The position numbers were made by a program, and so were the translations under genes. From contig NC_049987.1 in NCBI RefSeq assembly GCF_000003815.2, forward strand, positions 9,721,503 through 9,785,502: DNA of 64,000 nucleotides, read 5' to 3'. Origin of the DNA: Branchiostoma floridae (taxonomy: Eukaryota > Chordata > Leptocardii > Amphioxiformes > Branchiostomatidae). Below the pieces are notes generated by a model that was not told the DNA's origin, searched no databases, and saw only the letters and a list, made by a program, of their open reading frames with translations. Shown piece by piece: positions 1 through 63,701 of the stretch (positions within the stretch are counted from its first letter, which is position 1; each line of letters opens with the position of its first letter).

Positions 1-1700
1 TGAGCAATAATAATAATAATAATAATGGTTTATTTGGCAGAAGCATTTCGCAGCCTTTTGGCTGAATTACACTTCGCAGTTTTTTGGCTGAATTACACAC
101 TTCTTTCACAGAGAATCAGAAACTGGCTTCTGTGTTCTCTGACGTCACACACGACTCGGTGAGCAGTGGATCATAAGTTTTGGAACATTTCGTGTTGGAA
201 ATTACAACTTTTCCAAAATGTCTTCTACCAACACATGAAATTTCAAGTTAACAATAAAAATCATCGACAATGAAAATGTCTCATACAATGCACTAGGTAC
301 ATATAGGAATACATATTACACAGAAGAAAGGGGACAAGCGCGCCAAAAAGCGCGCTCATGAGAGCAANNNNNNNNNNNNNNNNNNNNNNNNNNNNNNNNN
401 NNNNNNNNNNNNNNNNNNNNNNNNNNNNNNNNNNNNNNNNNNNNNNNNNNNNNNNNNNNNNNNNNNNGGCTTGAATGGCAGTTCAATGACGTCATTGATG
501 TGGCTTGCCACAGTGTGTATCCTGTACGTACGGCTTCGTGACTGACGTGCCGAGCATGACGTCATTTGTGAAGTGGGAAGACCCCACTTGCGTCTGATTG
601 CAGAAGTTCAGACAAATGAATAACAAATCGTAGTGTTCCGTATCTTATGTGATACTTCGTAGAAGTAGAAATATTTATGTTTACCTTCACTTTGTCTAGC
701 GTGACAAACTACTGCTCTATTGATTCTTACCCAAATAAATTTATATTTATGGTGACCAGCCCCTCCAGCTCTGTCCTCCCCTTACTTCATAATGTTATAG
801 AACTCCACAGTCTACTACTTCACCAATAACCATGCTGACAGCCGTTTAGGCCATGCCATTGAACTTATTTGTTTGGAACGGAAGAATAAGTGGAAGAAGA
901 GAGAAACATAGCAAAAACAATATGTTTCCCTTCCGCAAAGTCGAACATAAAAAAAATACGATGACTCAGAAATAACGACAGTTTGTGAAAGTTTGCAGGC
1001 AAATCTATCATTTTACGCCAAGCATGACTTGGACGATGTTTCACTTCAATAATAATGTTTTATTGTAAATTCATACCCATGGGGCTAATTGCAAGTGAAC
1101 AAAATCAAATACATGGAGTGGTTAAAAACGGGTAAATAATCTAAATTCTAACATACAAAGGTTAACGAGTACGATTCTAACACCTACATTACTATTGCGG
1201 GGTTTGACCTCTTTTTTGAAAACAGTTGAAAATGAAATGTCCCACATTTTCTATGATAGATTGATTCGATGATCTTAGCAGCAGGTTTGTCTTTTGTGTG
1301 TTTAAAAAAAACACAATGACAATCTTCAAGGAATCTTCAACTGAAATCCAATTGTGCATCATATATTGCATATCTATACAGGACGTATATATACAGAACG
1401 TGCATGTATATAACAAGAGGTAATATTAGAAAGCTAAGAACAATGTAGGAATTATTGAAATCTTGTGGAACTTTGTTAGAGATTGATGCATATGTTTTAC
1501 CAAAATACACGCTCGTTCTAGAACAGTGTTTCATATTGATTCATTATTTCGACGTTCCAACACTATTTTGATAGAACAGAACAGAGTTAGGTCTGTTTAT
1601 AAACCTACAGCACTGTTGAAACGTAGCGCTTAGCGTCAAGTGAATTCAGTTTACTTTATTTGCACGAATCTTAACTTGTGTAATTGAAAATCGAATTGTT
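1..1700. other. No gene recognised; repeat-like DNA with gap
   Basis: The stretch opens with an AAT-type microsatellite (about 7-30) and contains a 100-N assembly gap at 368-467. The short ORFs here show no family motif, no splice-site pattern and no coding-like composition that I can support. I see nothing else that can be named. Confidence 0.5.
368..467. other. Assembly gap (100 N)
   Basis: Exactly 100 N. This is the conventional placeholder for a gap of unknown size in a draft scaffold, so distances across it are not reliable. Confidence 0.99.
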
Positions 1701-9000: not shown

Positions 9001-12000
9001 TCATCGCTACTCTCCGACTCTTCAGAATCACGTTCAGGCTCATATGCGTATGGCATAATGTAGTCTGGGTCGAACTAGTCTGAGCCACGGCCGCCTGAGT
9101 CCGCCATGACACTTTGTCGTCTGCTTCGTGTTTTGATCTGTGCGGATGCCCATATTTGGAAAACCCGTGACGTCAGGTCAAAGCCGAGAATTGGAAGCGG
9201 TCCCGTATGGGGGTTCATAGGTTTAGAACAGTGTTTGGTCGAAAAGTCAGTCGTGGTGATTTAGTCAAAAGTCGGGTGCATTTGTATTCCGAAGAGTGTA
9301 ATATATATGGGAAAAATACCCGTTTCATGAGTGGAATCCCCCTTTAACCAATCATAATGTGTTTTAACAGGAATGAATAAGATGGTGATCAACCATCTTG
9401 AGAAGCTGTTTGTGACCAACGATGCAGCCACCATCATGAAAGAACTAGAGGTGAGTCGGCTGGTCCCATCTTTTTTTGAAATGATGCTTTTTTTAAATAC
9501 AATTTTGAGCAGACAGGTTTAGCACACTATTAGCAATGGGAGCTACAAACGTAAGAATATACATTTGTGATATATGTGAAAGGTCCTTCTGTCAAAATTT
9601 GACCACAGTCTATTCCTTCTGATTTTCTTGCAAACAGTAACCTTCCTAAGATGCATTTACTTGAAATGTAGACATTGTCACCTTTACTGTAGACTAGCTA
9701 AAATACAACCAAACATGATTTTCAGAGGTTTCTGATAGTATGGTAGCATTTAACATTTATCTACTAGTTTGTAAAGATCTATGACGTGATGATGATACAT
9801 TGACATGGTATACCAAAGTTATGTCCAAAGTCTATTAGAATTTGTCATAGTTAATCCTTTTCCCAAACCTTGTCAGAATCATGTATAAATGATCCCATCT
9901 TTCTGTCATGTTTTCCCAGGTCCAACACCCCGCAGCTAAGATGATCATCCTGGCCTCACAGATGCAGGAACAGGAAGTCGGTGATGGCACCAACTTTATC
10001 CTGGTGTTTGCCGGCGCCCTCTTGCACAATGCTGAGGAACTGCTCCGAATGGTGGGTGGTTTTACAAAACTGAAAAAAACTCATTTTGTAGTGTGTTTAA
10101 CTTTGTTCTCTTTTTGTTGTGATCATCACAGGTTTAAGTGTAGGTTCTTTTTCTGCACAGGGTTTGTCTCCAACAGAAGTCATTGATGGATACAACATGG
10201 CAGCAAAGAAAGCCCTTGAAATCTTGCCAGGTAAGAAAAATAATTCTCTGGTCATAAAATCTAAAATTTTGCAGGTTTCTAGATCTTCAGATATATGTAT
10301 TGAAAAAATAGATAATTTAGTAATATTTAGTAATATTTTTATTATTCTAGTCTTGATGATTTGGCAGAGTCAACAATGATAACATGACTGTAATGGGTCA
10401 TGTGACCACATGTTAAACGTGTTCTTTAATTTTAATGTCTTGTTCATCTTTAAAAGATCTGGTGTGCGGTGAAGTGAAGGACCTTCGGAAAAGTGAGGAG
10501 GTTTTCAAGGTCATTCGAACGGCGGTTGCCGAGCAAGCAGTACGGAAACGAGGACTTCCTCTCTAATCTCATCACCAAAGCATGCAGTAAGGCTTTTACT
10601 GTTGATTTCTTGCCACTTAAATGTTTTACTTGTAACTACATTTGTATGTATTGGTAGTTTATGTATGTATGTATAAACATGTATCAGAATATAAGTCTAC
10701 AGAAGGAACATTTGGGAAACATGGGAAGTTATTGACATTTTCCTATTATTATTCATTGCATGACTACAGTATACACTATGAAGAAATTAAGGTATTTATG
10801 TAGCATACACTGCACATTGCTATCTGTAGTGATTGTTAAAGCTGCTCTGACATGTCTTGTGTTTTCCCTTTAGTTATGGTGCATCCCAAGAAGTCAGCTT
10901 TCAATGTGGACAGTGTCCGAGTCTGCAAAATGCTGGTCAGTGTTTAAGACCTTTTGGTCCCTTTTTCAGCTTGTTGAATAATTGCATTGTAACTCGTGTC
11001 TTTTGCTGTCACTATATTTTTTTTTGGTCATCATTTTAAGTGCATAGACTGAAAATGGAACAAAAGGTGTAAAGCCTATCACCTGTGTTACCGCAGGGCT
11101 GTGGAGTTTACCAGTCCACAGTTATCCAGGGCATGGTCTTCAAGCGGGAGGCAGAAAGCGACCTCGTCAAGGCCAAAGATGCCAAGATCGTTGTGTACAC
11201 GTGTCCGTTTGACATGGGGAACACAGAGACCAAAGGCACGGTCCTCATCAAGTCTGCCAAGGAGCTGATGGACTTCAGCAAGGGGGAGGAAGGTCTGATG
11301 GATGCGGTAAGTTGGATTGGGTACATTCTACATAGAAAGTTTATTTGCAAGTTCATGCCCGTAGGCTAATTGCAAGTACATGGTAGAAACAAGATATGTA
11401 TGTAACAATGAACTGTGATAAATATAATTATACAAAGAGACTACTTGAATACTAGTGTTGACTATATCTAGATAGGTTGGGTTTGACTTCTTTTTTGGAA
11501 GCAGAGGAAGACAAAGTGTCCCACTGTTTTTATAATTTGTAGGTTTTGTGATTTTAAGAGGAAAGTCAAGTTCTTAAGTACAACTACAACCACAGTTACA
11601 AACTGATCCATCTACTTGAATAACGTTATGTATCTTACCTCCTGGATGACTTTCTTAGACGATTTATAATCTGTTACGATGAAAGGAACTCTGCTTCTTC
11701 TTACTGTGTGAGATTTGTGGATTAGGTATTATTCTTTGGTTGACTATTCCTTTGCTGGTTGCTATGTGATGAAATGTTGCCATATTGAGAAACATAGAAT
11801 GTTAATCTTGTGTAGGAATCTTTGGTAGATCTTTCTTTAAAAAAATGTTTTATTACTTTTGCATTAAAAATCATAAAGGAAATTTTGAATCATTGAAATC
11901 ACCAAGCCCTGCAACAGTAACACTAAGAATATACTTTGCTTCTTCACACCTTAAGATGGTAAAATCGATAGCAGATACTGGCGCCAAGGTTGTCGTGTCT

Positions 12001-15000
12001 GGCGGGAAAGTGGCGGACATGGCGCTCCACTACGCCAACAAGTACGGCCTGATGGTGGTCCGGCTCAACTCCAAGTTCGACCTGCGCCGTCTGTGTAAGG
12101 CCGTGGGAGCCACCGCTCTGCCCAGGCTGGTAAGGATTATCACTGTGTCAGTACTGTACATGATGTAGTTTATCTCACTGTATGACACTGAGTGAGTTTG
12201 ACTCCTTCTGGTCCAATGAGTGATTTTTTGAAAGCCTTTGATAGTTGTAAATGTAAGACTAAGAGTAAAAATTTCAGCATCTATCCTAATCTGCCCATAG
12301 GTAAAATCGTTACTGTTCAGAAGCTTTTATATAACCAGTGGTTATGAATTATGATGAGGAGTTTTCAGGACCTGGTTATGTAGTTTGAAGTACTGATAAT
12401 CAATGGTTATGTTCTGTTGTCCATCCAGACCCAGCCCACAGCTGAGGAACTGGGCCACTGTGACATGGTCTACTCTGACGAGATCGGCGAGGACAAAGTT
12501 GTCGTCTTTAAACAAGGTTAGCAGTGTACCAACTTTAACAAACAACTCTAGATTACTGTGGACTTGAGTGTCAAAATCGACCATTCTTTGCATTGCTTTT
12601 CATGTAAATAAAGAAAATAACAGTATGTTAAAAACTTTTAGTTTTACTTGTCCCTCTGCATACATGAGTGCTTGTGAAAAGTAGTTGGTTTCAAGATTGA
12701 TATTTTGCTGTTTTGTGTTCTGGTATATAGAATTCATGTATAAAACTACTCTTAAAAAAGCCTGTCCCAAAATGTTTATCCTATCAAATCTTGAGAGACA
12801 TAGATAGAATGTGTGCCATGAGCTAAAGTACCTATTGCTTCACTGTTGCTGTACAGAGAAAGAAGAGAGTGCCCTGGCCACCATTGTCATCCGGGGTTCA
12901 ACAGAGAACATCATGGATGATATTGAACGTGCCATTGATGATGGTGTGAACAACTTTAAAGTCATCACGAGGGTAAGACTCTTCTATATTGGTGTATGAT
13001 TTTCACCCGAGAAATCTTTTTTCAACAGAAGATACCATAACATGTTTATGTTGATTATGCTCAGTGTCTTTATATGCTCCAAAAACTGCACTGGAGATAG
13101 CATAATCAGGGTTCTCCCCAGAATTTTTTAGTATAGTGGAGGGGCTGGCAAAAATAACCTGGACCAACGCGCTGCGCTTTCATGGAAATGGGTTCATTTT
13201 GCAATGACAGAGGGTGTCAAATACTACAAGTACAATATATTGTTGTGATTCCTTTGTTGTGAAGTGGCAAAACGACTATTGTTTTGATCATGGCTCATTC
13301 ATAAGTTTTTGCAGACAACGCTGACTGGAAAAGTGATGCCACTTGGCACAAAAATCTGTGAATTGTCATTAATTTTAGCAAAACAAAGAAAATAGGGAAG
13401 AAACACACTAAATTTGAAAAGTAGTATAGTGGAGCTGGCTAGGAGTATAGTGGAGGGCCTCCCTTATTCCATCCTCTGGGGAGGACCCTGCATAATTCAG
13501 GATTATTAAAATTGATGCATAAACATATCATAATCAATCTATGAAACAAAGTTCCATTGATAGTTTCTTTCCATTTCTACACTGATTCTATCATAACTAT
13601 TTCATGTCTGAAAAAGGCCACTCATAGTTTATGATAGTTGATGGATGATTCTAATTGAAACCTTCCTCTCCGTGATACCAGGACCAACGGCTGCTACCTG
13701 GTGCAGGGGCTACAGAGATCGAGCTGGCCAGGCAGCTAGCATCGTATGCAGAGGTAAGGGCTGTAGCATTTCAGTAACAACTCAACGCTAGACTGATTGC
13801 TTCACGGATGAGGTAGACGCTGATAAATGTACAAGTCTTATTACTCCTCTCTGTATTTGTTGGAGGAAATTATTCTGAACACTGTGTGTCCAGTATATAG
13901 ATTTACATGTTGCTGTTGTTGTTCACCCTGTAGTGCCAAGTGGCTCATAAGTCAGATATGTTTCCTGCTGTTTCTGTAGCAGCGTATATTTTTACGGGGA
14001 GGGGTTACTAACCCTTCCCCTTTAACGTGCTCAAAACACCTCTTCAAACACAGAATCCCCATTTTACTTCCCTTCTGAAAGAGGGTTGGTCTCCATTTTA
14101 ACGAACTAATTAGAACCAGAGGTTACACTGTGAGGTTGCTACCAGTTGGGCTACAGGGACATCCCAGCAGATTATATACTGTTACAATATTTGGTGACTG
14201 AAACAAATTAAATTTTCACACTCCTATTTATGTCTATTACCTAAGAAGACACCTATGTGTCCCTTGAATCTCCCTACATTAAAATGTTGCTGCCCTGTGT
14301 TCTGACTTCCCTATTTCTCCACAGACTTGCCCAGGTTTGGAGCAGTACGCCATCATGAAGTACGCTGAGGCATTCGAGTCACTCGTAAAAGCATTAGCAG
14401 AAAACTGTGGCATCAAGGTAAGCTTCCTGTTCCCTCAGCTTAGCATTAATTACTGGTAGATGTACATTAGGTTTGTTTATCTATTTCATCAGGATATTCA
14501 GGTCTCTTACTGGTGCTTTTCAATGATTTCTGGTGGGAGACCCCAAAAATACACGAGCACAGTAAAAACAATGGTCAACTAAGGCCCACTTCAAACAGAC
14601 AACACTTATATAGTCGTGCGACTGTTATTGACTATTCGTTGTGGGCAACTGTTGTCTTTAGACATGCGTTCAGAGTATTGCGGGACACCCGCGGTGCAGG
14701 ATTCCACTGCGGTGCGTGCGTGCGTGCGTGACCCACAGTGACCCCTTGCTTGCAAATTAAAAATGGCAGGAGAATTCTTCATTTTCGTCATGCAGCAGAT
14801 TACTATTCTTTTGCTTGCAAACAAACATTGTCCCCAACAAAGAATGACACAGAGACGGGAAAATCTGGAATTAAAGCCGGCGTTCGTGGCCGCCGGTGGT
14901 ATTACAGATTACTACTAGTATCATGAAGGATGTAGCCACTGGTGGTGGGGCATTGCGCTGGAACAGGCAGTTTCTGATGACAAAAATACGTTTCCATTAC

Positions 15001-16690
15001 TGACTGCATGTATATTTACAGAGAAAAATGCCCTTTCAAATAGAAAAAAACATGCTTCAGGCTTATTAGCATATGATCCAGTCCCGTCACCGGCGACGAT
15101 TTTTCTTTAGACATGTGAGGAATAGTCGCAGACCCCCCGCTGAAGGGTCGCGCGACTGGGTCCGAGGTGGTCGCACGATGATTCCATAAAAACCCTCGCA
15201 CGACTATTTTGATCCTCTTTAGACAGCCTAAAAATATCGTCGCCGGCAACGTTGTCGACAACAACAGTCGCACGACTATGAAAGTGTTGTCTGTCTAAAG
15301 TCGGCCTAAAATGAACTGCATGTATTAGTATTGATCTTCGTGAACCTGGAGCATAGTCTAACTTACCAGTGTAACAATATAATTTGAGTGCCACTATGGA
15401 GTGGTTAAGTTTGATGTTACCAGTAGATGTTGTTGTAAATGTTGTAACATGTTTGCTTATTGCTTTCTCCAGAGCCAGGAGCTGATAGCCAACCTGTATG
15501 CTGAACACCAGCAGGGCAGGAAGAACGTTGGCTTTGACAATGAGGTAAACTTCTGTTCTCTCATGTGGGTTAGTCTGAGTAATTCATGTTTCTAACAGCC
15601 CCCAAGTTTGTGGTTCTTCAAGGGGTCCCAATTGACAGTAAGAGATTGTGTAAAACAGGCTAAGAGTTTGGTAAAGTTTGTGCAGGATGTTTGTACTGCA
15701 TAAGCTGTAAACTGCCTCATGGCATAACACACCAGGTTTGTACTGAAGGGTACAAGCTGTACATCTGTACAGACTTATTTATCCACCCACACTGGAATGG
15801 GCTGACAATATAACATACTTTGTATATTAGAACTAATAACATTTGACCATACGTTGGTTTTATGTCTCATTACAAGCATTAAGGGAATACGATATCAGGT
15901 GCCATGAATACAATAGAAGCTGTCAATATGAATGTATGGGGACTTACTCAGATGTTATGTTACTGTGTCCCACAGGGGGAGGGAGTCGCAGTTAAAGATG
16001 TTGCTGAGGCCAATATCCTGGAGCCGTTCCTAACCAAGATGTGGGGCATCAGACTAGCCTCTAACGCCGCGGCTACGGTACTGAAGGTGGACCAGGTAGG
16101 GGAACCTTTTCTTTCATACAGAACTGGCCACATCTGCCAGATGGACAAAGTCACATTGATATTCTTAAGGTTTGAAACTTGCAGGTCTGGAGGATAAACA
16201 AGACCATGTATCTCTAAATCTTGCTGCTTCGTTTGCAAAGATCACAACTCTGAAGTTTATGTGCCGGTCCAAAAAACAAGTGAATTTGTACACCAAAAAG
16301 CAGTTACTCAAGCAACTGCATATGATTTTGGAAACGGCCAGATGTTTCAGACAGCCATCTGGTGTCTTTTATTAGTGACACTGAACAAAAACTTCTTTGA
16401 GATAGTTTTTATATCCTAGCTTTGAATGGATATGGAAAAGAGATCTAGTTGGAGAACAGATTTATCCTAACAATGAATTAATATGCAAAAGGGGAGGGGG
16501 GGAGGAAGACAAATTTTTGATAGACCAAGTGGATTTGTCATGGAAAAGATTTGGATCCTGATTTGGGAATGCATCAGTGGAGTGATTTAGTTTTAACCTT
16601 GTTTCTGTTGTTTTTCCACAGATAATTATGTCCAAGCCAGCGGGAGGTCCCAAACCCAGAGAGAAGGCAGACTGGGATGATGATGACTGA
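3085..16690 (+). CDS. CCT8: T-complex protein 1 subunit theta (chaperonin CCT8)
   Basis: CCT8 is one of eight paralogous subunits of the cytosolic TRiC/CCT chaperonin, which folds actin, tubulin and other proteins in an ATP-driven cycle. Coding exons, all with AG/GT borders: 3085-3144, 3860-3950, 9371-9450, 9920-10051, 10161-10230, 10457-10586, 10874-10935, 11097-11306, 11956-12129, 12429-12516, 12857-12972, 13682-13753, 14325-14417, 15473-15544, 15976-16095, 16622-16690. Sum is about 545 residues, against 548 in human. Start MAMRVPKAPGLAQMLK aligns with the vertebrate N-terminus. Group II chaperonin motifs seen: TAYGPNG (exon 2/3), NDAATI (exon 3), GDGTN (exon 4), and GAGATEIEL (exon 12), where vertebrates have GGGATE. 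The end is an acidic tail DWDDDD, typical of theta. Odd: exon 6 is one base too long. The frame breaks at about 10524-10531 and reaches TAA, while the correct residues (SKQYGNEDFL) continue one base over and the exon 7 phase fits only if one base is removed. An assembly error is the simplest reading. Confidence 0.97.
3957..4090 (-). mobile_element. tRNA-derived SINE fragment
   Basis: Read on the minus strand, a tRNA-like B box (GGTTCGATTCC, plus 3975-3985) sits in a T-arm-like hairpin CCTGGG...CCCAGG. An A-box-like TGGCCTAATGGTT lies upstream at about 4023-4035. No acceptor-stem pairing typical of a real tRNA is seen, so this is a SINE head, not a tRNA gene. It starts within about 10 bases of the CCT8 exon 2 donor. 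Confidence 0.6.
4900..5900. repeat. Degenerate tandem repeat, about 4 copies
   Basis: A unit of roughly 180-250 bp recurs with the core 'aagctaaggtcttcaaac', then 'ttttgtgtacattcc', then 'gatagtaactcgactg', then 'gtttacgagaaattgggcc', then 'cgccattttttgttgacat'. Cores start near 4915, 5365, 5575 and 5785. Copies differ by many substitutions and small indels, so the array is old. Non-coding. Confidence 0.7.
6018..6058 (+). CDS. Unassigned coding-like exon A inside CCT8 intron 2
   Basis: A 41-nt segment follows a strong acceptor (long T-rich tract then GATAG) and ends at AAAAG|GTAATT. Its third frame reads KEKDVVEEKPKSK and joins in frame with exon B at 6885. If spliced into CCT8 after exon 2 it would instead be read in another frame and reach a stop at the start of exon B, so it is either part of a separate nested gene or a stop-introducing exon. 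I recognise no family. Confidence 0.35.
6885..6983 (+). CDS. Unassigned coding-like exon B inside CCT8 intron 2
   Basis: A strong acceptor (TATTCTTTGCAG) precedes a 99-nt open segment reading, after the junction codon, DLRQRLDYSKRLGDYV and then VKNIYEKKQDYTFKKKG. The possible donor is AAAG|GTGTTG. If there is no donor the frame stops at a TGA near 7048. The basic, aromatic, helix-like residue mix looks coding. I found no convincing start exon upstream or further exon downstream. Function unknown. Confidence 0.35.
8704..9107 (-). pseudogene. Decayed cysteine-rich ORF, P2X7 C-terminal-domain-like
   Basis: From an ATG at 9107 the minus strand reads MADSGGRGSD, a stop, then an acidic stretch (FDPDYIMPYAYEPERDSEE). 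After a frame change it reads WCRC and then CECMCCHDLRELTDP, followed by LKCVKLHEEFHP. The spaced Cys/His pattern resembles the cysteine-rich P2X7 'ballast' type domain found in many invertebrate proteins. Internal stops and at least one frameshift mark it as broken. It lies next to the right end of the TTAA-flanked region, so it may be element cargo. The family call is from motif memory only. Confidence 0.4.
10457..10586 (+). other. CCT8: CCT8 exon 6 carrying a 1-base frameshift
   Basis: The exon is 130 nt; 129 nt are needed for the flanking phases. Reading from the acceptor gives DLVCGEVKDLRKSEEVFK then VIRTAVA, and then the frame is lost. Shifting by one base restores SKQYGNEDFLSNLITKAC, matching the family. 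The extra base lies at about 10524-10531, near residue 169. Confidence 0.9.
13107..13490. mobile_element. Foldback element, hAT-like ends
   Basis: The ends are CAGGGTTCTCCCCAGA and its near-inverse (CTCTGGGGAGGACCCTG), flanked by the direct repeat CATAAT at 13101-13106 and 13491-13496. The interior repeats 'agtatagtggag' near both ends. It has no coding capacity, so it is a non-autonomous (MITE-type) insertion in CCT8 intron 11. Confidence 0.8.
14010..14170 (-). repeat. Possible old tRNA-derived SINE
   Basis: The minus strand shows an A-box-like TAGCCCAACTGGTAGC and, about 25 bases later, a weak B-box-like CTGGTTCTAATTAG. The pattern is degenerate and I see no flanking duplication. Confidence 0.25.
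14583..15306. mobile_element. Foldback element, Harbinger-like, TAA target site
   Basis: The left end is GGCCCACTTCAAACAGACAA and the right end its inverse; the inverted match runs about 45 bases. Direct repeats TAA flank both ends (14580-14582 and 15307-15309). GG-starting ends with a TAA site fit PIF/Harbinger. It lies in CCT8 intron 13 and encodes nothing I recognise. Confidence 0.75.
16290..16372 (+). repeat. Fragment of a dispersed foldback family
   Basis: The stretch containing 'gcagttactcaagcaactg' and 'gattttggaaacggccagat' recurs at 38411, 45304 and (inverted) about 51880. This copy is half a hairpin, in CCT8 intron 15. Confidence 0.65.
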
Positions 16691-20715: not shown

Positions 20716-21225
20716 ATAGACTCCGTTGCAGTCTTCGAAAGGGGCTGTTTTTTTTATTTTTTGGGTGCGTTGGTTCGCGATTTTCAACGTTGGTCGGGTT
20801 CTCTTGAACCCCCAAAGGGCCTTTGCCCAGGAAGATATATTGCTGAGAAAAAAAGGGCCCAAAAACCCCAATTTTGGTGATTTTCAAAGTGATGGCCCCC
20901 CATAAGCCTTTGAACGTCCTTTAAAAATACTTAATTCCTGAAATAATGGAAANNNNNNNNNNNNNNNNNNNNNNNNNNNNNNNNNNNNNNNNNNNNNNNN
21001 NNNNNNNNNNNNNNNNNNNNNNNNNNNNNNNNNNNNNNNNNNNNNNNNNNNNCACGATATAGTATCATCCTGAAAAAAACTCATTATCAAGGCAAACTCG
21101 GTTCCTCGGCAAACTCCCTTACCCGGCACAAGAGAACCCAGCCCAACGTTGAAAATCGCAAACCAACGCAACACCCCCCCCCCCCAATAAAAACCAGCCC
21201 CGTTCGAAGACTGCAACGGAGTCTA
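20716..21225. mobile_element. hAT-like foldback element, 8-bp target duplication
   Basis: Ends TAGACTCCGTTGCAGTCTTC and its inverse match for about 30 bases. Perfect 8-bp direct repeats CGCTCAGA lie at 20708-20715 and 21226-21233. The interior includes a 100-N gap (20953-21052), so true length is unknown. The same ends occur at 63493-63701, and part of the interior (near 20870-20940) recurs at 26775-26885. Confidence 0.85.
20953..21052. other. Assembly gap (100 N)
   Basis: Exactly 100 N inside a repetitive foldback element, which probably caused the gap. Confidence 0.99.
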
Positions 21226-23278: not shown

Positions 23279-24207
23279 AAAACAACACCTGAAGCGATTT
23301 GTCTACGAGGTCTTTGCTTTTATACCACTTACAGGGTAACCTTTTGCAACCATAAATATCTGTACGTTAGACATGCGCCATGGTGAGCCTACAAAAAAGA
23401 CACGTTGTATGTCGCATGTGGCGTGGTATTGATATATGGGGAATATTGGTTTCTCCGAATGAAAGCTCATCTGTGTTGGTAAATTAAACTTTTTCAATAT
23501 TGGTTTCTGTCAGTATTTGATTGCATCTGGATATTGATAGACTGCTGACACAGTTTGAGATAATTGTCTCTTTCGTTTTACAACCCACACATATTTCCTC
23601 ACACATATGTACATATAGATAAATACTGAAAGAACAGCAGTACCAAACGTAAAAACAGACATTGATCGACGTAATTTCATTGATTTTACTCTTCTAAACA
23701 CTGATAAAAAAAGAAGAAGCTCTCGTGAGCCAAAATATCTGTGTCAAGGTATCGGTATCTCATCACATGGATGTAGTATTACCGATCCGTTCTCCCAGAC
23801 AGACAATTTTCATAGAAAATGCATATCATTTGTCCTTCTTGTTTCTGAATATCCGATGTCCAGTCTCATATAGATGTAAGTCCTGACTGCGCAGGCAATC
23901 TCCCACAGAACTTCTCAGAAGCCGCACACGTCTACTGCAGACTCTGACAGCGTTCGACTGACCGGACCCATCTTTGGCACAAAGCTAGGTCCCTTTTTAT
24001 GATCCTGTTGTAACACATAGAGTAGTAGCAATAAGTAGCAACACGATCGTTACGAGACAGAGGCGTTTTTTTCAATAAATGCCTCTGTAAGAAGCGTCAC
24101 CCTGTGATCTCACTGCGGCTCATGTCGCAACAAGAGCTTTTTCATCTTGGTCGCTTCCTGTATCATCCTTTGGCCAGACCGTTGTTTCAGTAGAGCGCAC
24201 CTCAGCA

Positions 24208-25704
24208 ATGATGAAAGCTATTGTCATCTTGTGCGCACTTCTTATCGTTGTGTGCGTGGCTACACCCGCCAAGAGTGAGACCCTGCCTAAAGACTGTATC
24301 CAGTCAAAAACAACGCCATCGGGTAACCGCCTTGTGCTAGTTACCTGTACCGACAGAGGGTTAACCAGCTTCCCTGACGACATCCCATCCGATACTTATA
24401 ATTTGAAGCTGATGGACAACAAAATCCGCCATGTCCCCCATATTCCACCGCTAAAAAACTTGAGGATATTCGGCCTCGGTAGGAACTTGATCGAAACCCT
24501 GTCGTGGTCTTCACTCTGTAACTTGTCGGCAGTGAGTAACATCTACTTAATCTCTAACAGGATCACAAACGTTAGATTTGAGAGCTGTATCAATCAGCTG
24601 ACAAATCTCCGGTATGTAGATCTGTCACGAAATAGGATTACAACCTTGGCTGAAAGCGACCTTGCGCTACCCTTGAGCACAGCAAAAATCTATTTAGTTT
24701 CCAACCCGTTCCACTGCGACTGCAAACTGGCATGGCTAATCAAGAAAATGAAATGTTTGCAAGACAGTGAAGACAGGGAAGCTCAATCATGCGACGCCTC
24801 CTTCCTTTCCAACGCGTACTATCACGTAGCGAGCGAATTCTTCTGTGGCTCACCAGTTCAGTTACATAAAAGGCCCCTGTCATTAGTTTCTGTACCTGGG
24901 TTGGGCTGTGCTGCCACGACCCCTCCATCAACAGCATTTGAGATTTCAACGCACCAGCAAATAAGTGGAAATACGGATATTGATATCATCAGCCTCAATC
25001 CACAAAATCATCATCCCAATCCACCAAGTACCCAACAGAGCGTTCGTGTACCGGCTGGTACAAGTGTTCACCCCGTGACCCAACATACAAGTATTACACA
25101 AGGTAATGCTGTATCATCTCAGGGTATCGCTGCATTTGACAACAGCGCAAAGCATGGGGGTACATCATCGGCAGTCGACGCTGAGATAGAGAAGAGGGAT
25201 GAACCAGCGTTCGGAACCGTCCACATCATCATCATGATATCAGCCGGCCTTCTCGGCTTGGTCTTCGTCGCCTGTGTGATCTTCAAGTTGATCAAACACC
25301 GTCGGAACCTTGAGCTCCGCAACAGGGCAGCAAATGTCCTTCAGCACCAGAACACCGTTCCGTTTCAAAACCCTGTTTACGGACACGCCAGCGACAGCGC
25401 CGACCCAACTGGACCAACACTCGCCATAGAACTGTCACAGCTCGTACCGCCGATACAAAACGTATCATATCATCATAACAACCCAGCTCGCCTCCAAACT
25501 TCAACTAACATAGAACTGTCTCAGCTAGTCCCACCTATCGCAAACTCACTGTATTGCAGTGATAACCCAGCCACCATGCCGAACCAGCCACACCTCCAAA
25601 ATCCCCTTCCTCCCATACAAAATGTGTGCTATCACAGCAACAAGTCTGGCGGTTTGCCAACCGAGGCACAGAAGCCTGAACATACGTACAACTACATACC
25701 GTAA
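24208..25704 (+). CDS. Leucine-rich-repeat type I membrane protein (498 aa)
   Basis: Start ATG ATG AAA gives a signal peptide (AIVILCALLIVVCVATPA). A short LRR domain follows (about residues 45-165), with units such as LRYVDLSRNRITTL and NLRIFGLGRNLIETL. A C-terminal LRR cap begins NPFHCDCKLAWL near 166 with its paired cysteines. A Ser/Thr/Pro/Gln-rich stalk runs to about 335, and one membrane helix covers about 338-362 (IIIMISAGLLGLVFVACVIF) followed by the basic stop KLIKHRR. The cytoplasmic tail (about 135 residues) repeats a motif three times: ELSQLVPPIQNVSYHHN, ELSQLVPPIANSLYCSDN and PLPPIQNVCYHSN, plus NPVYGH. Only one exon. The architecture is that of LRR receptors and adhesion proteins that are numerous in lancelets; the ligand is unknown. 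An orthologue cannot be named. Confidence 0.85.
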   Translation: MMKAIVILCALLIVVCVATPAKSETLPKDCIQSKTTPSGNRLVLVTCTDRGLTSFPDDIPSDTYNLKLMDNKIRHVPHIPPLKNLRIFGLGRNLIETLSWSSLCNLSAVSNIYLISNRITNVRFESCINQLTNLRYVDLSRNRITTLAESDLALPLSTAKIYLVSNPFHCDCKLAWLIKKMKCLQDSEDREAQSCDASFLSNAYYHVASEFFCGSPVQLHKRPLSLVSVPGLGCAATTPPSTAFEISTHQQISGNTDIDIISLNPQNHHPNPPSTQQSVRVPAGTSVHPVTQHTSITQGNAVSSQGIAAFDNSAKHGGTSSAVDAEIEKRDEPAFGTVHIIIMISAGLLGLVFVACVIFKLIKHRRNLELRNRAANVLQHQNTVPFQNPVYGHASDSADPTGPTLAIELSQLVPPIQNVSYHHNNPARLQTSTNIELSQLVPPIANSLYCSDNPATMPNQPHLQNPLPPIQNVCYHSNKSGGLPTEAQKPEHTYNYIP

Positions 25705-27674
25705 AGATGCACCATCGGATGATCTAGGCCGGTGACAGAAACGACCCAGTACAAAAACAAATGGCCACAAAAGTGTATTGTGATAAAAAAGAGCCCAAAT
25801 AGCTATAGGGCCCAGAGAGCCTGCTATTGAGGCAAATTATAGGCTGCCAATGCATGCAACCCAGCTTTTCTGCCAGCTCACGTTTACATTCAAGCCTTAA
25901 AAATCATCAAAATCGCTGAACATTTTACAGGCTTTCTTAGTGATGATAAAATTTAACGATGACTTGCATGGCAAATTTGCGCGTGCGCATGAACAATTTG
26001 CGCGTGACAAAACAGTTCTTGAAACATGTTAGATACTGTGCAGTGAAGACTTTTAAGGCAGAAAAATGTGACCACATGATATGATATTCCATCTGTTACC
26101 TCAATTTTTTGGTTGAAAAATTCCTGATTTTAGGTCCCCTGGGAATCAGGGAATTTGCATATTGTCACGCGCAAAATTTTCACGCACACAAAAACCCATC
26201 CCTTCCGACGTCGACGACCACTTGTTGGAAAACAAGTTTTCCAAACGATCATTGGTTTATCAGATATTCTACCTCTTGAATCTTGTGACCTACCGCCACA
26301 AAAACAAAATCGTAGACAATGAGGTAAATTCTAGCTGCAAATCTGTTGTATCAGTATAGGTGCTAGCGCTGGCTGTGTTTGATGTAGTTGTGCAGTTATT
26401 TCAAGTACTATTAAGTTTGGAAAGTAATATCAGTGCTAGTGTCTCTGTGACAAGTCTCTTGTCATTCTCATTTAGCATGACAGAATAAAGTGTATGTCAG
26501 TTGTGTCGAGATGGATCTAGAAAGCAATGTCAGTGAGAGAGGATGTTCTGAGACGTTTTTTTTTCTTAACTGTTTTCGTAATCAAATCATAGTACGATAT
26601 GTATCCTAAGTATTGTGAATATTCATCGAGTAGTAGATCTATGTCTTGTAGAAATTTGTTGTTTGGGTAGTTGGCATTATAAAGGCATCGATGAGGTAAG
26701 CTATTAGTATGTTATTTTTCTGCTAAATTCCAAAGCATAGAAAATTTGTAAATGCTTATTCGAAAGTGTATCTTACAGTATTTCAGGAATTAGTATTGTC
26801 AAGGACGTTCAACGCTTATGGCGGACATCACTTTGAAATCATCAAACTTGGGATTTTTGGCCATTTTTGCATCACGATATGATAGCCAAATAACCTGGGG
26901 ACATGGGTAGTTTTTTTAGTAGAGATAGAAAATTATAACCTAGAAGGGTCCATTTTGTATAAGGGTGTTCCGGATGGGGGTCAAATAAAAAGAAAATGAG
27001 TAAGACCATTTTGGATTGCTTATTTCTAAAAACGTTTAATATGGAATAGTCCATTTTTGTATTGGTATGTTGATGGAATGAAATATGCTGTATTCGCTCG
27101 CGCGCTCCTAAGCAATGTCGGCCTTCTTGGTTTCCTACTATATTTAGATGAAGTATTTACTGCATGTAACATACTCTGTATATCCAAAAAGTGTGTGGGA
27201 TCAAGATACCTTAAGTCACTATTTATTATCTATGTATTAGCTTGGTGTATCTCAGAAATATAAAAATAAAATGCATTGGTCGATGCGAAAAGGGTCTCTT
27301 TCTTGCCTTATTCTGACTTGTTAAACAAACAGGAGGGCGTAAAAAGGAGGGAAATTGTTTGTGAAAGGTAGCACGGTCACTCTAGAAATTATGGATGTTA
27401 CTTTGATAAAAGCAAAACGTGTATGAACGTGTCAAATTGCAGAAGTAAGGGACATATAATACGTGTATTGCTAGTAGTAACAAGATGACAACTGTATGAA
27501 GATTGTTCCGTGGCCGTGATAGTGCTTGCCTGTTTGTTAGCTACCATTAACGTTATATGGACAGTCAAGGAGCTTTAATTTGAAATTTTGTAAGGAGGTT
27601 TAAATGCGAAAATCAGTATTCAGTGTGCTATTGCCTTTTCATGTTCTATTGAAATGTTGAGATAAAAAGGGTGA
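25705..27674. other. Mostly unexplained, with one element fragment
   Basis: Segment 26775-26885 matches, inverted, the interior of the foldback element at 20716-21225 (shared 'ttcaaagtgatg' and 'aacgtcctt' stretches). A canonical AATAAA at 26484-26489 could end the LRR transcript. I see no coding signal elsewhere here. Confidence 0.45.
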
Positions 27675-27877
27675 AAAAGAGTTGGGTCCCACTATATTGG
27701 CCGGGCTGAGACGCAGTGCCTATTCACGGGCGCGATCCCGCTACTGATCGACACGGGGACTTTTGCCTGCTTTGTTTCCAACCTGGGCCGGTGCGTCCCT
27801 CCTTAGACGACCTGGTTGCCCTGGGCTCCCCCAGCCTCCAGGTAGCTGGATTACAGGCGCGCGCCACCACGCCCAGC
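27675..27877 (-). ncRNA. Internally deleted 7SL (SRP) RNA gene copy
   Basis: On the minus strand this is a 203-nt version of the 7SL gene at 61092-61390. Bases equivalent to 61141-61236 (96 nt) are missing, with the junction in a GGGG microhomology. All remaining transcribed bases appear identical to the full gene. The 5' flank (CACGTG at 27919-27924, TATA-like at 27905-27910) and about 50 bp of 3' flank beyond the T-run are also shared but with several differences, so this is a DNA duplication, not a retrocopy. The upstream CRE seen at the full gene is not kept. The 5' Alu-domain part and the 3' end remain; the lost part is the 5' side of the central stem and the start of the S domain. Transcription is possible; normal SRP function is unlikely. 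Confidence 0.9.
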
Positions 27878-27904
27878 TGAGCGCTGCGGCCAGTTTCTAG
27901 GAGG

Positions 27905-27924
27905 ATATAGCTAGCAGTCACGTG
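27905..27924 (-). promoter_or_regulatory. Upstream element of the short 7SL copy
   Basis: A TATA-like CTATAT about 30 bases and a CACGTG about 45 bases upstream of the RNA start are kept at the same spacing as at 61045-61064. Confidence 0.55.
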
Positions 27925-44900: not shown

Positions 44901-47900
44901 GTATAATTTGAAACATAATCATTTCTGAATTTCCACTTCATGCACAATAGCTCTTTTCCCTCTTTAATACATTTCTGGAACAGATTTTAGAATGGATAAA
45001 CAAGTGTGCCAGATCACAACAGCGTTAACACTTCTACCTCAACCCCATGTACATGTAGACGAGCTACATTAAGATGTAAATAAAGGACAGGAGAGTACTG
45101 ATTTGATGTTCAAAACTCACAAAGAAGAGTTGTCCCTATGATAACGAAGCAAGGAGAAAGAGTGGTGATGTCAGATGTAAACAGAGCTTAGATATTACCT
45201 ACATTTGTCAGTAGTTGTCATAGTTTAATATGTTTTTACTCAAGTGAACGAAATGTTTCTCAAAGTCTAGCATACCAACCTTTGAAATATAGACAAGGAT
45301 ATCGCCCAAAAGCAGTTACTCAAGCAACTGGATATGATTTTGGAAACGGTCAGATGTTTCAGACAGACACTGACGAAAGAACTGACGAAAGACACCAGAT
45401 GACTATCTGAAACGTCTGACCATTTCCAAAATCATATCCAGTTGCTTGAGTAACTGCTTATTGGCTTATCTTATTACCTGGATGTCTAACCTTCATCAAT
45501 GTGAGAAGGATATCATCTGGTCTAAAATCTATAAAGAAATGACTTCTAATACAATCCTCTCATGCAGCAACTAATAAACAACTCTATTTATTTTGCAGCA
45601 TGCAAAAGTAGCATTGTCTTTGGTTTTTATACTTGTATCTGGTAACATGTATACATGTAGTACCTTGTTTGACAGAGAGCCCGTTCATAGTGTTGACAAA
45701 AGATGACATGATGATAGACTCGTCCTCTGGGCACACGGACAGATTCTGGAAGGTGTAAAACAAGGCAAACAATGCAGAGGCCAACGTGGCAACTAACAGC
45801 AGTGCTGGGAACGCACAGTACAACCTTACTATGTCACACTTACAGAAACAGGGGACACACAGGCAAAATGGATGATACTCTTGAGTCTGCCAAACAAGAA
45901 GTACTTTGAGGTACAGGCAGAATAAAATTTTATCAATCAATGATACATGACAGAAATTTTACATTGCAGTTAAAACTCTCAATATGTTTAAAATGTCTTT
46001 GGTGCAATTATACAGTTCTCTTGTTTCAGGATCTTGAAATCTTAAGAAGCCTCCATGTACCAATGATGTATACACTGCCACAAAATTTAAATTTAACATT
46101 AGATTTCAACAAGATATATTGTTTGTACATGCAGCACTTCAAAAGGATGATCTCAGTTCCACAATGCCTGTATACCACCTGGGGATTGGATTAGTACTTA
46201 GATACTAGCAAAGAATTGGTTAAAGGGTTAGTAATTTAACAGGGAGGGGACACAAATACACCACTCAGTACTTTATATTGAGAGTGCTCATAGAAACAGC
46301 AAGTTTGAATACAAAAAGGGGAATCAGGGGGAGAGGGGGGACTATTTCACCATTCCATGGATGCTTCTTTTGACAAATTTTTGGAGACAAAAAAAAGTTG
46401 TGGAGTATGATTTCCTTCCAGAAACAAAAGATTGGTGAAGTCTGTGCCAAGGAGAAGAACAAACCAACTTCACAGCCAGGCGAAAGTTATTTCTGGTGGG
46501 GAACGTCAACTCCAAGATAGACTGGCTTACCCAGTCCTCCTGGCACGTAGGGTTACGTTTGCTGTTGAAACTTTCTCTCGCACGCAAGCGAGGCTTGCAT
46601 AGGCCGCAGGAAAACACAAGAGAACTTTGGTTACCAAAAGAGTGACAAGCTCAAGGGGGTAGGAGCATATACAATATCAGGGTACACCGTCTTTTTTATG
46701 TGTTCTTGGTCAATATTCTTGCAGTTGAACCACTTTATATATCAGAAACTCCTGTGTAGAAAAAAATGTTTATAAAACTGAGCTTCAAGGCAAAAGTAAA
46801 TGTCAATATTTCAGCATGAGCAGCTGATTAATTGCCGTTTTGATCAGCAAAAATGGCAGCCAAATTATGAACATGCCTTCTGTGCTCAAACATTGATGCA
46901 AACACAAAAAAACTTTCCTAATACACAGTACATTCAATCTGAAACCCTTCATGACAATAGAACAAAACGATACCTGCATATATCTACTACTTTATTCACA
47001 AAACTACAGTTGCATTTCCAATAATTTGTACAAGCAGATTTTAAATCTTTGACAGCAGTTTTCTATGGTACCATGACAAGTCTCTACAGAGTAATTCTAG
47101 TAGCATCTAGCACACTAAATCGCATGCAGACAAAAATATCAAAACTCAAGCAGATTTTACAAGTTAGGTCTACCTGGTGCAATCCATTCTTTGGTGGGGA
47201 GAGCATTACAAGAGAGGAAGAAGAAGTCCACAAGAAAATTTCAACCACCTCTTGCCAAAAATGATCCTAAAGCCTTACATGTGATGGAGTTAGATTATGG
47301 CAGAAGCAGAGCTGAGAGGTTGAGATGCACTTGGAATTTGAAATGTACTTGGAAGTGAACATTGACTCAGAGTGGAGGGTAAGGTGGGAGACTGAGGCAG
47401 GAAACAGGTTAAGGTCTACAGTTTTCTATACTACAGTAGGAAATTGACCATGCCACTGTGCAAGATATAAATGTTACGCTGAGAAGAAGCAGAGGTGTGA
47501 AAAAGACAAGGCATATACTAGAGGTACTTTACAGGGGAGGGGTGTGTTTTTCATCAAACATGAGTGAGAAGGATGTGGGAGAGAGGGTATGATGTACAAT
47601 GAGAATATGGGAATCATAAGAGCAGAAATGCAGAGTGTTAGATCCATATCTATGACAATTCTATGACTATTACATATCTAGAAAGACAATGCAACTGGCA
47701 TGCTAGGCAATGGTGTTTTTAAAGGAAGGTTATTAAATGGGTTATTACAAAGAGCTTTGCGTGCATTGATCATGTTTTACTACTGCCATCCAAATACAAA
47801 TAGTAACATCTAATTTCACACCTTTCATGCAATTGACTCAATTAATATACATTGGAGCATGCAATTTTAAATTCACATGGTGGTACAATGTATCTGTGTG

Positions 47901-53900: not shown

Positions 53901-56900
53901 CGTATACCAAGCAGACTATTCTCACATGGCCATTGTTGTTGTCTTTTTTGACAAACTTGAACCAGCTTTATTTCAATTTCAATTTGAGCGAGGACAGAGA
54001 CTGAGGGAAGCTCATGACAGAACGTTGAATCTGAAGAAAGACACTTAAGGGAAAATGTGAAAAAAAGATTTTTGCAACAAGATGTAAACTGGAACAAGTT
54101 AGCACAAAGTTCATGTGTATTGTACTTGCTGCAAATTGTCCCAAGTTTTACTTATTTCAGTGCTTATAAACCACATGCTAGGTTGGTATATATATATATA
54201 TATATGGAGGGTATGCAGTGATATTTGAAATAATGTAAAAAGTGGACTTTCAAAATGTAGTGAAACAGTCCCTGTTTCAAATCTGACATTTTCAGCCACT
54301 ACTCTCACTTTTAATATTTGGTTTCATTCAAGTGCTAAATTTTTGACAAAAAGTTCCCATTTTCTGAGGATATCATACAATGGATGAATGGTGACATGTA
54401 GATTTAGAAATCATAAATTCCTCTCATAACAAATGCCAAAATTAGTCCACAAAACATTAGTCAGGAAGATTGAGTTGAAAGATGCAGAGAATGCAAGAAT
54501 GAAAGAGAAAGGAGTAGAGAAGACAGAGTAATTAGGCATGTGAGTGATACCATACTAGTGTGCAGTGTGATCTACCTACATACCATTTTAACGCTGTGCT
54601 TTGTGGTAGTGCCATTCTACCTCACATCGAAATGCAAGTGTATTCAACAGAATACTACATGTGACCAAAATTTATCAGAAAAAAAAAGGTTTAAGAAAAA
54701 AATAAAAGCCTGACCACACCAAAGTGCAGTGCAACAGTGCGTACATGTAAACCTCTCCAGAGCAAAAGACGACTCAACTAACCTGCACAAAAGGCATTGT
54801 CCACTGCACATGCAAGGATAAGATATGGCAAAAAATTGTCATGGTTAAAAAAGCGTACTGTTACATCTAACTCTACAGCACTTAGTGGCAAATACATCTT
54901 AATTTGATTAAAATGATCATGAGCAAAATTGCAGGCACGTGGGCAATTAAAATTAGAACACAGGTGGAAGGGGTGAAAAATGAAAATGAATTTAACTAGA
55001 AAGGCCGACATTTGCTTGAGAGCAAATACAGCATATTTCAGCCATCTCCTTCCCCAAGCAACAATGGACTATTCCAAAATCACCCATGTGCAAAAATGGA
55101 ACTCTTCTGCTTAAGATGACTAAGCATCCTAAGCTACTAATTACACGTATGAGCAAAAATGAATCGTACAACCCCCTTCCCTGCAAGAATGGACTCAAGT
55201 GCACCCAATGTAGAAGGGTAAGATAGACCAGTCCAATAACACTTCCGCTAAGAAATGGAATTTTGAATCATCAGCCGTCCAAAACTGAATTTGAAAGAAA
55301 TCCCCCCCCTTTGCAAGAATGGAATCTACCTGTTATACCCCTGTGCAAAGTGGAGCGATCCAAAAATACATCCGCTAAAATAGGACTTTGACATAATCAC
55401 CAAAGTCCAGAAATACATGGCCTTTTCTATAATAAGCAACCCAGTCCAAAACTGAATTTTTTTAATAGTCCCCTGTGCATGAATGGACTCATCCATATTA
55501 CATCAGGCTTGCTGATTGGCTGTCGAATCCTCAGGTACAGTCTTCAGGTGGGGTCAAGTTCCATTCAACAAATGGAATTCGGAATCATCACCCATGTCCA
55601 AAAATGAATTTTTTAAAAATCCCCCCTATGTGCAAAAATGGACTGTCCCAGCAGTAGCCTTATGTCAAGTGGATCAGTGCAAAAACACTTCCGCTAAAAA
55701 AAGCATTGGCATTATCACCAAAGTCTTGTTGAAGAGGTTCATCAGTCACGTATGTTTAAGTTACTATCAATTTTCTTCGAACAATGACTGTTTATTAAAG
55801 GTAGAGAACGTACCTCCAAATTTTCGATGTCTGTCAGTACATCTTGGACGCGGAGAATGGTCTAGTCTCAATCTCGTGAGAGAATACGAGACTAGACCAG
55901 GCTTGATTAGATCATCTGCCCCCTCCCCCCGCCTCCTTGCGGAGAAGAGGCACCAAAGTCTTAAAGTAAATTTTAAAAAACACCCCCCTGACCAACAATG
56001 GACTCTTCCAGCAAAATAACCTTGCTCATTGGCTAATAATTAATTAGATTTACCTTGTCCCCCCCAACCACCTGGAGGAACATGGACTAGGTAGGTATGT
56101 AGATGATTGGATCTACCAGAAACACCTGTGGCTTCCAGAATGACCTAGAGGTCGTTGACATGGGCACTTCCACCTCACAAATCCAAAATTCTCCCACAAA
56201 AACCTCCATAATGAGCCATTTTGAAGTGATTTATACCAAATATTATGCATGGATCCTTTGAATAAGTACCTAGGGCACCTCTGTGCTAAATTTCAGGTCA
56301 TTTGGATGTAATACCATGGTACAGGGGGCCTAAATATAAAGTTGTGGTCCAAAAATTGCAATAAAACCTCAATAAAATCATTTTAGAAGCAGATATGAAT
56401 AAAATGAAAAAAACACCTAAGGGTATTGGCCCACTCTACCCTTGTGCCAAATTTCAAGTCATTCGGTCCAGGAACGACGGAGTTGATTCGATTTGAAGAT
56501 TTGACAGGAGAAAGAAAGAAAGAAAGAAGAAAGAAACACTAGAAAGGCCGACATTTGCTTGAGAGCAAATACAGCATATTTCAGCCATCTCCCTCCTCAT
56601 GTAACAATAGACTGTTCCAAAATCACCCATGTGCAAAAATGGAACACTTCTGCTTAAAATGACTTACAACTACTAAACACATTTATGAGCAAAAATGAAT
56701 CTTACAAAACCTCCTTCAAGAATGGACTCTTCTAGCGCACCCCATGAAGAAAGTTAAAATAGACGACTCCAAAAACACTTCCGCTAAGTAATGGAATTTT
56801 GAATCATCAGCCGTCCAAAACCAGATATGAAAAAAACCTCTGTGCAAGAATCGACTCTTCCTGTTATACCCCTATGTAAATTGGAGCGATCCAAAAATAC

Positions 56901-61028: not shown

Positions 61029-61064
61029 TGACGTCATGCTAAGTCACGTGACTGCTAGCTATAT
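61029..61064 (+). promoter_or_regulatory. External promoter elements of the 7SL gene
   Basis: TGACGTCA (61029-61036, a perfect CRE/ATF site), CACGTG (61045-61050) and TATA-like CTATAT (61059-61064) lie 63, 47 and 33 bases before the RNA start. Human 7SL genes also use an upstream ATF/CRE site with internal pol III elements. Confidence 0.7.
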
Positions 61065-61091
61065 GCTCCTAGAAACTGGCCGTAGCGCTCA

Positions 61092-61390
61092 GCTGGGCGT
61101 GGTGGCGCGCGCCTGTAATCCAGCTACCTGGAGGCTGGGGTTGGTGGACCGCTTGAGGCCGGGGGTTCTGCGGCGTGCTGTCCTATGGCGATCGGGCGTC
61201 CACGCTAAGTTCGGCATCGATATGGTTACCCCGGGGGAGCCCAGGGCAACCAGGTCGTCTAAGGAGGGACGCACCGGCCCAGGTTGGAAACAAAGCAGGC
61301 AAAAGTCCCCGTGTCGATCAGTAGCGGGATCGCGCCCGTGAATAGGCACTGCGTCTCAGCCCGGCCAATATAGTGGGACCCAACTCTTTT
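61092..61390 (+). ncRNA. RN7SL: Signal recognition particle RNA (7SL), full length
   Basis: This is the RNA scaffold of the signal recognition particle, which pauses translation and targets ribosomes to the ER. The 5' end GCTGGGCGTGGTGGCGCG and the following TGTAATCCAGCTACC match the Alu domain. Internal blocks GTTCGGCATCGATATGG, GGAAACAAAGCAGG and GATCAGTAGCGGGATCGCGC match the S domain and helix 8. The 3' end runs GGGACCCAACTCTTTT with a pol III T-run at 61387-61392. Its length, about 299 nt, equals human 7SL. It lies 478 bp from the NCKAP1 start codon, head-to-head. Confidence 0.97.
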
Positions 61391-61624
61391 TTCACTCTTT
61401 TTATCTCAATATTTCATTATAACATGAGAAGACAGAGTACATTTCACATAAATTTTGACATTTCACCCCCTAAAATGCATTTTTTTAAGAACTCACTATG
61501 TACATCTATCAAGTACCATGTGACAGCCAAGCGATATCATGTACACAGAACGATCGCAGCCAATCGATATCATGTGCACCGAACAGACTTTCCTTGTTAC
61601 TTATGAGCACTAGTATCATGCGTC

Positions 61625-61956
61625 CTTTACTTTCGTATTTTGACTGTGTTCGTACTCGTTTTGCATTTATAAAACACCCCTTCACACTTTTTTAATTCTA
61701 CCGTTACACTGTTCAACTAAAAACGAAAGCGCAGACACACGCTACTGAAACCACAACCTTCTTGACGAAGGTAATAAGCACACAGAAGCCCTTTACTTTC
61801 GTATTTTGACTGTGTTCGTACTCGTTTTGCATTTATAAAACACCCCTTCACACTTTTTTAATTCTACCGTTACACTGTTCAACTAAAAACGAAAGCGCAG
61901 ACACACGCTACTGAAACCACAACCTTCTTGACGAAGGTAATAAGCACACAGAAGCC
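61625..61956. repeat. Perfect 166-bp tandem duplication
   Basis: Units 61625-61790 and 61791-61956 appear identical throughout. Such identity means a very recent event or an assembly artefact joining two haplotypes. Non-coding. Confidence 0.9.
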
Positions 61957-63492: not shown

Positions 63493-63701
63493 GTAGACTC
63501 CGTTGAAGTATTCGAACGGGGCGGGGCGTCTCGGGACGGGGCAGAATCGCTGTCACGGCAATCTCGCTTTCACAGCAAACTCCCTTCCTCGGCAAACTCC
63601 CTTTCCCGGCACAAGAGAACCCAGCCAACGTTGAAAATCGCGAACCAACGCTCCGCCCCTCGATAAGAACCAGCCCCGTTCGAAGACTGCAACGGAGTCT
63701 A
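63493..63701. mobile_element. 209-bp hAT-like MITE
   Basis: The same ends as the element at 20716-21225 (GTAGACTCCGTTG ... CAACGGAGTCTA), flanked by perfect 8-bp repeats GAGACATT at 63485-63492 and 63702-63709. Confidence 0.9.

Follow-up and report, generated by a model that had tools for sequence, protein, structure and literature searches.

Within the 64,000-nucleotide stretch of Branchiostoma floridae DNA that was analysed as a whole (the window), a short 7SL copy carries the same sequence as a full-length 7SL gene except for one missing block of 96 nt. Does such a copy encode a shortened RNA that is maintained for its own sake, or is it what remains of a gene that was complete until recently? 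The initial annotation favored an independent, Alu-like shortening of 7SL, in which either constraint on a short RNA or gene conversion kept the transcribed part uniform. We consider it probable that the short copy is instead a second 7SL gene, kept uniform until recently by selection and/or conversion and then turned into a young pseudogene by the loss of 96 nt between two GGGG runs. The features on which the argument rests are collected in Table 1.

Table 1. Coordinates of the 7SL loci, their flanks and transcription signals in the window
Feature	Position	Strand	Basis or remark
Full-length 7SL (SRP) RNA gene	61092..61390	+	RF00017 match; fold z -2.19
Shared 5' flank of the full gene	61045..61091	+	alignment to the short copy's flank
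CRE-like TGACGTCA, -63 to -56 of the full gene	61029..61036	+	octamer present 8 times in the window; suggestive only
B-box position (GGTTCTGCGGC), absent from the short copy	61164..61174	+	assigned by 7SL alignment; human and hagfish B boxes in the available part of PMC7245038
96 nt missing from the short copy	61141..61236 (equivalents from 61137-61232)	+	5' strand of helix 5 and apical hairpin (helix 6/7), B-box position; GGGG at both ends
Short 7SL copy, 203 nt, RNA +1 at 27877	27675..27877	-	identity to the full gene; partial RF00017
Shared 5' flank of the short copy (-47 to -1), with CACGTGAC and TATAT	27878..27924	-	2 differences from the full gene
Proximal 3' flank of the short copy	27629..27674	-	9/46 substitutions (6/43 trimmed) and a one-base T-run difference from the full gene
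Distal 3' flank	27402..27532	-	homologous to 61557-61674; 89/116 identical (27/116 differ), 17 gap columns

Two 7SL loci and their flanks

The full copy is a 7SL, or metazoan SRP, RNA gene with a complete match to the Rfam family RF00017 (Metazoa_SRP; 61092-61389 on the plus strand, 287.2 bits, model positions 1-299 of 299). The second locus is inverted and some 33 kb distant; it corresponds to the full gene without a single 96-nt block; none of its 203 nt differs (0/203), as the initial annotation had already noticed for some 200 bases. The short copy also gave a partial RF00017 match on the minus strand (27729-27865, 74.8 bits against a gathering score of 70). Because the alignment, which spans model positions 105-246, places the 5' domain of the short copy on the helix 5 strand, we rejected this match as a sign of an intact domain. 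The same 5' domain matched mir-1268 with 38.2 bits, below the gathering score of 83; we take the mir-1268 family to be Alu/7SL-derived. Searching the window by blastn with either copy as a query revealed no third 7SL copy, the remaining matches scoring at most 26.5 bits, and pattern scans of viral and prokaryotic contigs returned 0 matches.

The flanks are more diverged than the transcribed part. Upstream, the two loci differ at 2/47 bases, at -27 and -9, which is a weak contrast to the 0/203 differences in the transcribed part (Fisher p = 0.035). Past -47, we found no homology above chance over 600 bases, for which 81/200 randomised sequences aligned equally well. Downstream, 9/46 bases are substituted, and the T run differs by an indel of one base. 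Trimming reduces this count to 6/43, as three of the nine differences are the final three aligned bases at a ragged end, and the difference from 0/203 is significant with either count (Fisher p = 1.3e-7 for 9/46 and 2.1e-5 for 6/43). Beyond a poorly aligned stretch, homology resumes in the distal 3' flank with a match that 0/200 first-order randomised sequences attained. These counts bear out what had been reported from the first inspection, namely 2 differences in about 47 bases of the 5' flank, several in about 45 bases of the 3' flank, and a transcribed part more conserved than either.

Because homology is found on both sides of the gene, the alignments show the two loci to be related by what would be an old duplication at the DNA level that included the proximal promoter and the 3' flank. 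The earlier proposal of a 7SL derivative duplicated with its promoter attached is thereby supported, as far as the proximal promoter is concerned. The flank divergence suggests that this duplication is not recent. We rejected an origin as a retrocopy because homology continues through both flanks.

Other repeats were observed in the window. Downstream of the full 7SL gene, there is an exact tandem duplication of 166 bases (61624-61956, 100% matches), either very recent or an effect of assembly. Within 54995-57914, several stretches are duplicated; they are about 80 to 585 bases long and share roughly 72-92% identity with one another. A sequence of ~134 bases occurs in both orientations around an N gap (20953-21052, within 20717-21225) and again at 63568-63701, and is perhaps a short inverted-repeat transposon. 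A further repeated sequence of 65-77 bases at 16293-16369 and 45305-45464, with copies 91-94% identical in both orientations, is perhaps a MITE. On the plus strand, the window also contains a long open frame with leucine-rich repeats (PF13855) at 24091-25704 and an exon-like match to T-complex protein 1 subunit theta (CCT theta) at 11953-12129 (PDB chains, best E 2.7e-27).

Position of the deletion in the RNA and its consequences

With GGGG at either end of the block, the 96-nt gap has five equivalent placements, from 61137-61232 to 61141-61236; the last of these is the one given in the initial annotation. The short copy accordingly lacks RNA positions 50-145, or their equivalents down to 46-141. 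The single gap is accompanied by a 4-nt GGGG microhomology. At least 4 matching bases are found at 116/26274 start/length combinations in the full gene; such GGGG pairs are common there, and the microhomology is therefore suggestive at most.

To locate the loss in the structure, we mapped the Rfam consensus pairs onto the full RNA, which gave 120 pairs, 99 of them standard; the helix names used here are those we assume for the mapped pairs. Depending on the placement, 85 or 86 of the 120 pairs have lost one side. In each of the five placements, all of the helix 5 pairs (67/67) are without their 5' base. The apical hairpin is hit in 15 to 18 of its 18 pairs, while the closing pairs 46-49 correspondingly account for 4 to 0. 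As the bases lost are those of the 5' strand, the deletion is one-sided relative to the stem, and the earlier label of a "central deletion" is misleading. In sequence, the 5' domain retains both bases of its 14 pairs, and the same holds for 17/17 pairs on the 3' side of the apical hairpin, of which 15 map as helix 8 and two in a small hairpin. The short copy is thus 7SL-derived and has lost essential structure, as would be expected of a 7SL pseudogene, which should also make no functional product.

Folding predictions gave the same picture. Whereas only 3/200 shuffles folded at least as well as the full RNA, the short RNA had a z of 0.18, and 107/200 shuffles were at least as good. When 96 nt were removed from the full gene at other positions, 173/197 deletions gave an RNA at least as stable as the real one. 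As many as 121/202 deletion positions would spare the 5' domain together with 13 proximal helix 5 pairs, which the actual deletion does not. In predictions that omit the SRP proteins, the pair probability drops from the full to the short RNA in all five retained groups tested, with mean values falling from 0.76 to 0.0 for helix 3, from 0.566 to 0.048 for helix 4, from 0.664 to 0.12 for helix 8, from 0.76 to 0.0 for the closing pairs 46-49, and from 0.097 to 0.0 for helix 2, which is poorly predicted even in the full RNA. We rejected a stable new fold of the short RNA on the basis of the shuffle z, the pair probabilities and the deletion comparison.

Transcription signals are partly preserved. 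The short copy retains the A-box region, TATAT, CACGTGAC at -47 and a T-run terminator, with five T compared with six in the full gene. The B box was judged lost by its alignment position, with no consensus score; in a scan of the full gene with the tRNA-type B-box consensus, even its own 7SL B box falls outside the five best matches, the highest of which (9/11) is retained in the short copy. No exact TGACGTCA lies within 300 bases upstream of the short copy, where one-mismatch matches occur at -300 and -113. For mammalian 7SL genes, the accessible part of PMC7279448 places a CRE at -51/-44, mutation of which in the human gene cut in vitro transcription 2.5-fold, and a TATA-like box at -31/-24, an interval that includes the -27 change of the short copy. 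Because the proximal promoter, the A-box region and the T-run terminator remain, transcription of the short copy would be possible, but it is likely weakened.

Explanations for the complete identity

How can a copy with a broken stem be free of any other change? The following course of events would account for it. An old DNA duplication would have produced two full-length 7SL loci in opposite orientations. Both copies would then have remained nearly identical through selection on each working gene and/or gene conversion, while their flanks drifted. Recently, the minus-strand gene, presumably intact until then, would have lost 96 nt between the GGGG runs, probably by microhomology repair or slippage. 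By removing the B box together with the 5' strand of helix 5 and the apical hairpin, this deletion would have turned the gene into a young pseudogene, whose RNA, if made, would be non-functional. Selection on the then intact gene would have preserved the 203 nt, and too little time would have passed since the deletion for decay. If the copy has been neutral and unconverted, 0/203 changes place the deletion within at most the last 11-19% or so of the branch after the duplication, the range depending on the flank count. That the deletion is recent is inferred from a single copy in a single assembly, which shows zero changes, and the short copy most likely no longer works.

The absence of changes would, however, also be expected from gene conversion or from constraint on a short RNA, the two explanations offered in the initial annotation. 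The main rival is gene conversion across an older deletion, by which full 7SL genes would keep the 203 nt uniform while the deletion persists. The contrast between 0/203 and the 3' flank with its 9/46 (6/43 trimmed) differences is in line with conversion, and a full gene in the opposite orientation is available as a partner ~33 kb away in the same window. Conversion would nevertheless require tracts that repeatedly homogenise ~49 nt on one side of a 96-nt heterology and ~154 nt on the other without ever restoring it, and we regard this explanation as possible but unlikely. The remaining half of the earlier alternative is the least supported biological reading. A 203-nt RNA that is made and constrained, for instance as a partial SRP RNA binding SRP proteins, would fit the retained proximal promoter, A-box region and terminator as well as the 0/203 changes. 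Its fold is no better than that of shuffled sequences, the predictions leave little of helices 3, 4 and 8, the B-box position is gone, the exact TGACGTCA is missing from the 300 bases upstream, and the -27 change falls within the mammalian TATA-like interval given in the part of PMC7279448 seen. Moreover, a sequence fully identical to the parent shows no trace of having adapted to a new structure. As folding argues against constraint, what speaks for such an RNA is its identity and the retained parts of the promoter, and we consider it improbable. The more specific idea of a transcribed ~200-nt 7SL variant, composed of the 5' Alu-domain and helix 8 without helix 5 and selected as a decoy or regulator of SRP proteins, is very improbable. 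Misassembled or misplaced 7SL sequence, to which the two 100-base N gaps of the window (368-467 and 20953-21052) and the exact 166-base tandem repeat mentioned above might point, is hardly credible for a short copy that lies >6 kb from both gaps and has distinct, diverged flanks.

The recently intact gene, a simpler third option beside constraint and conversion, was missing from the initial annotation. It also carries a general caution: a shortened copy of an RNA gene that is identical to its parent does not prove constraint on the short form, because the copy may recently have been a working full-length gene. If confirmed by population data, the locus would provide a clean example of a 7SL gene lost recently through a single deletion, which is perhaps still segregating.

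Comparison with SINE1 families and other 7SL copies

The initial annotation likened the short copy to primate Alu and rodent B1, and the likeness to SINE1 elements (Alu, B1 and hagfish SINE1-1_EBu; PMC7245038, as far as its text was available) lies in a 7SL sequence with an internal deletion. According to the same part of that source, SINE1 families of Euarchontoglires have the human 7SL regions 1-63, 76-83 and 267-299 in common and keep the Alu domain together with the A and B boxes while lacking the S domain, and the hagfish SINE1 has an independent but very similar central deletion, with an Alu domain that is predicted to form. The short copy lacks 50-145 (or 46-141), so that the segments 50-63 and 76-83 of the SINE1 families are deleted, in a numbering slightly off that of human 7SL. 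It is neither devoid of S-domain sequence nor equipped with both internal boxes. While Alu and B1 keep both strands of the Alu domain, the short copy drops one strand of the Alu-domain stem; it retains the S-domain helix 8 sequence, which is the reverse of the SINE1 pattern, and has kept the A-box region without the B-box position that SINE1 possesses (PMC7245038, same part). SINE1 elements are dispersed, retroposed multicopy sequences; within the window, there are two 7SL loci only, with homologous flanks on both sides, and one shortened copy, whose promoter and flanks were duplicated along with it. An Alu-like central deletion was rejected by the mapping of pairs against this SINE1 definition, and the short copy is not Alu-like, whether by membership or by design.

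Extra 7SL copies offer a second comparison. In the accessible part of PMC11893794, 7SL is described as typically multicopy, with most copies inactive and with copy numbers that vary among vertebrates, such as one in the elephant shark and 24 in the miiuy croaker. A literature search at the level of titles and abstract openings yielded no comparable copy in an invertebrate. Retrocopies, as portrayed in the available text of PMC7245038, consist of full-length 7SL with a poly-A tail, whereas the short copy arose, to judge from its flanks, by DNA duplication. The short copy resembles known 7SL gene copies and pseudogenes in being an extra, damaged 7SL copy, and differs from them in that its damage consists of one deletion and no other change.
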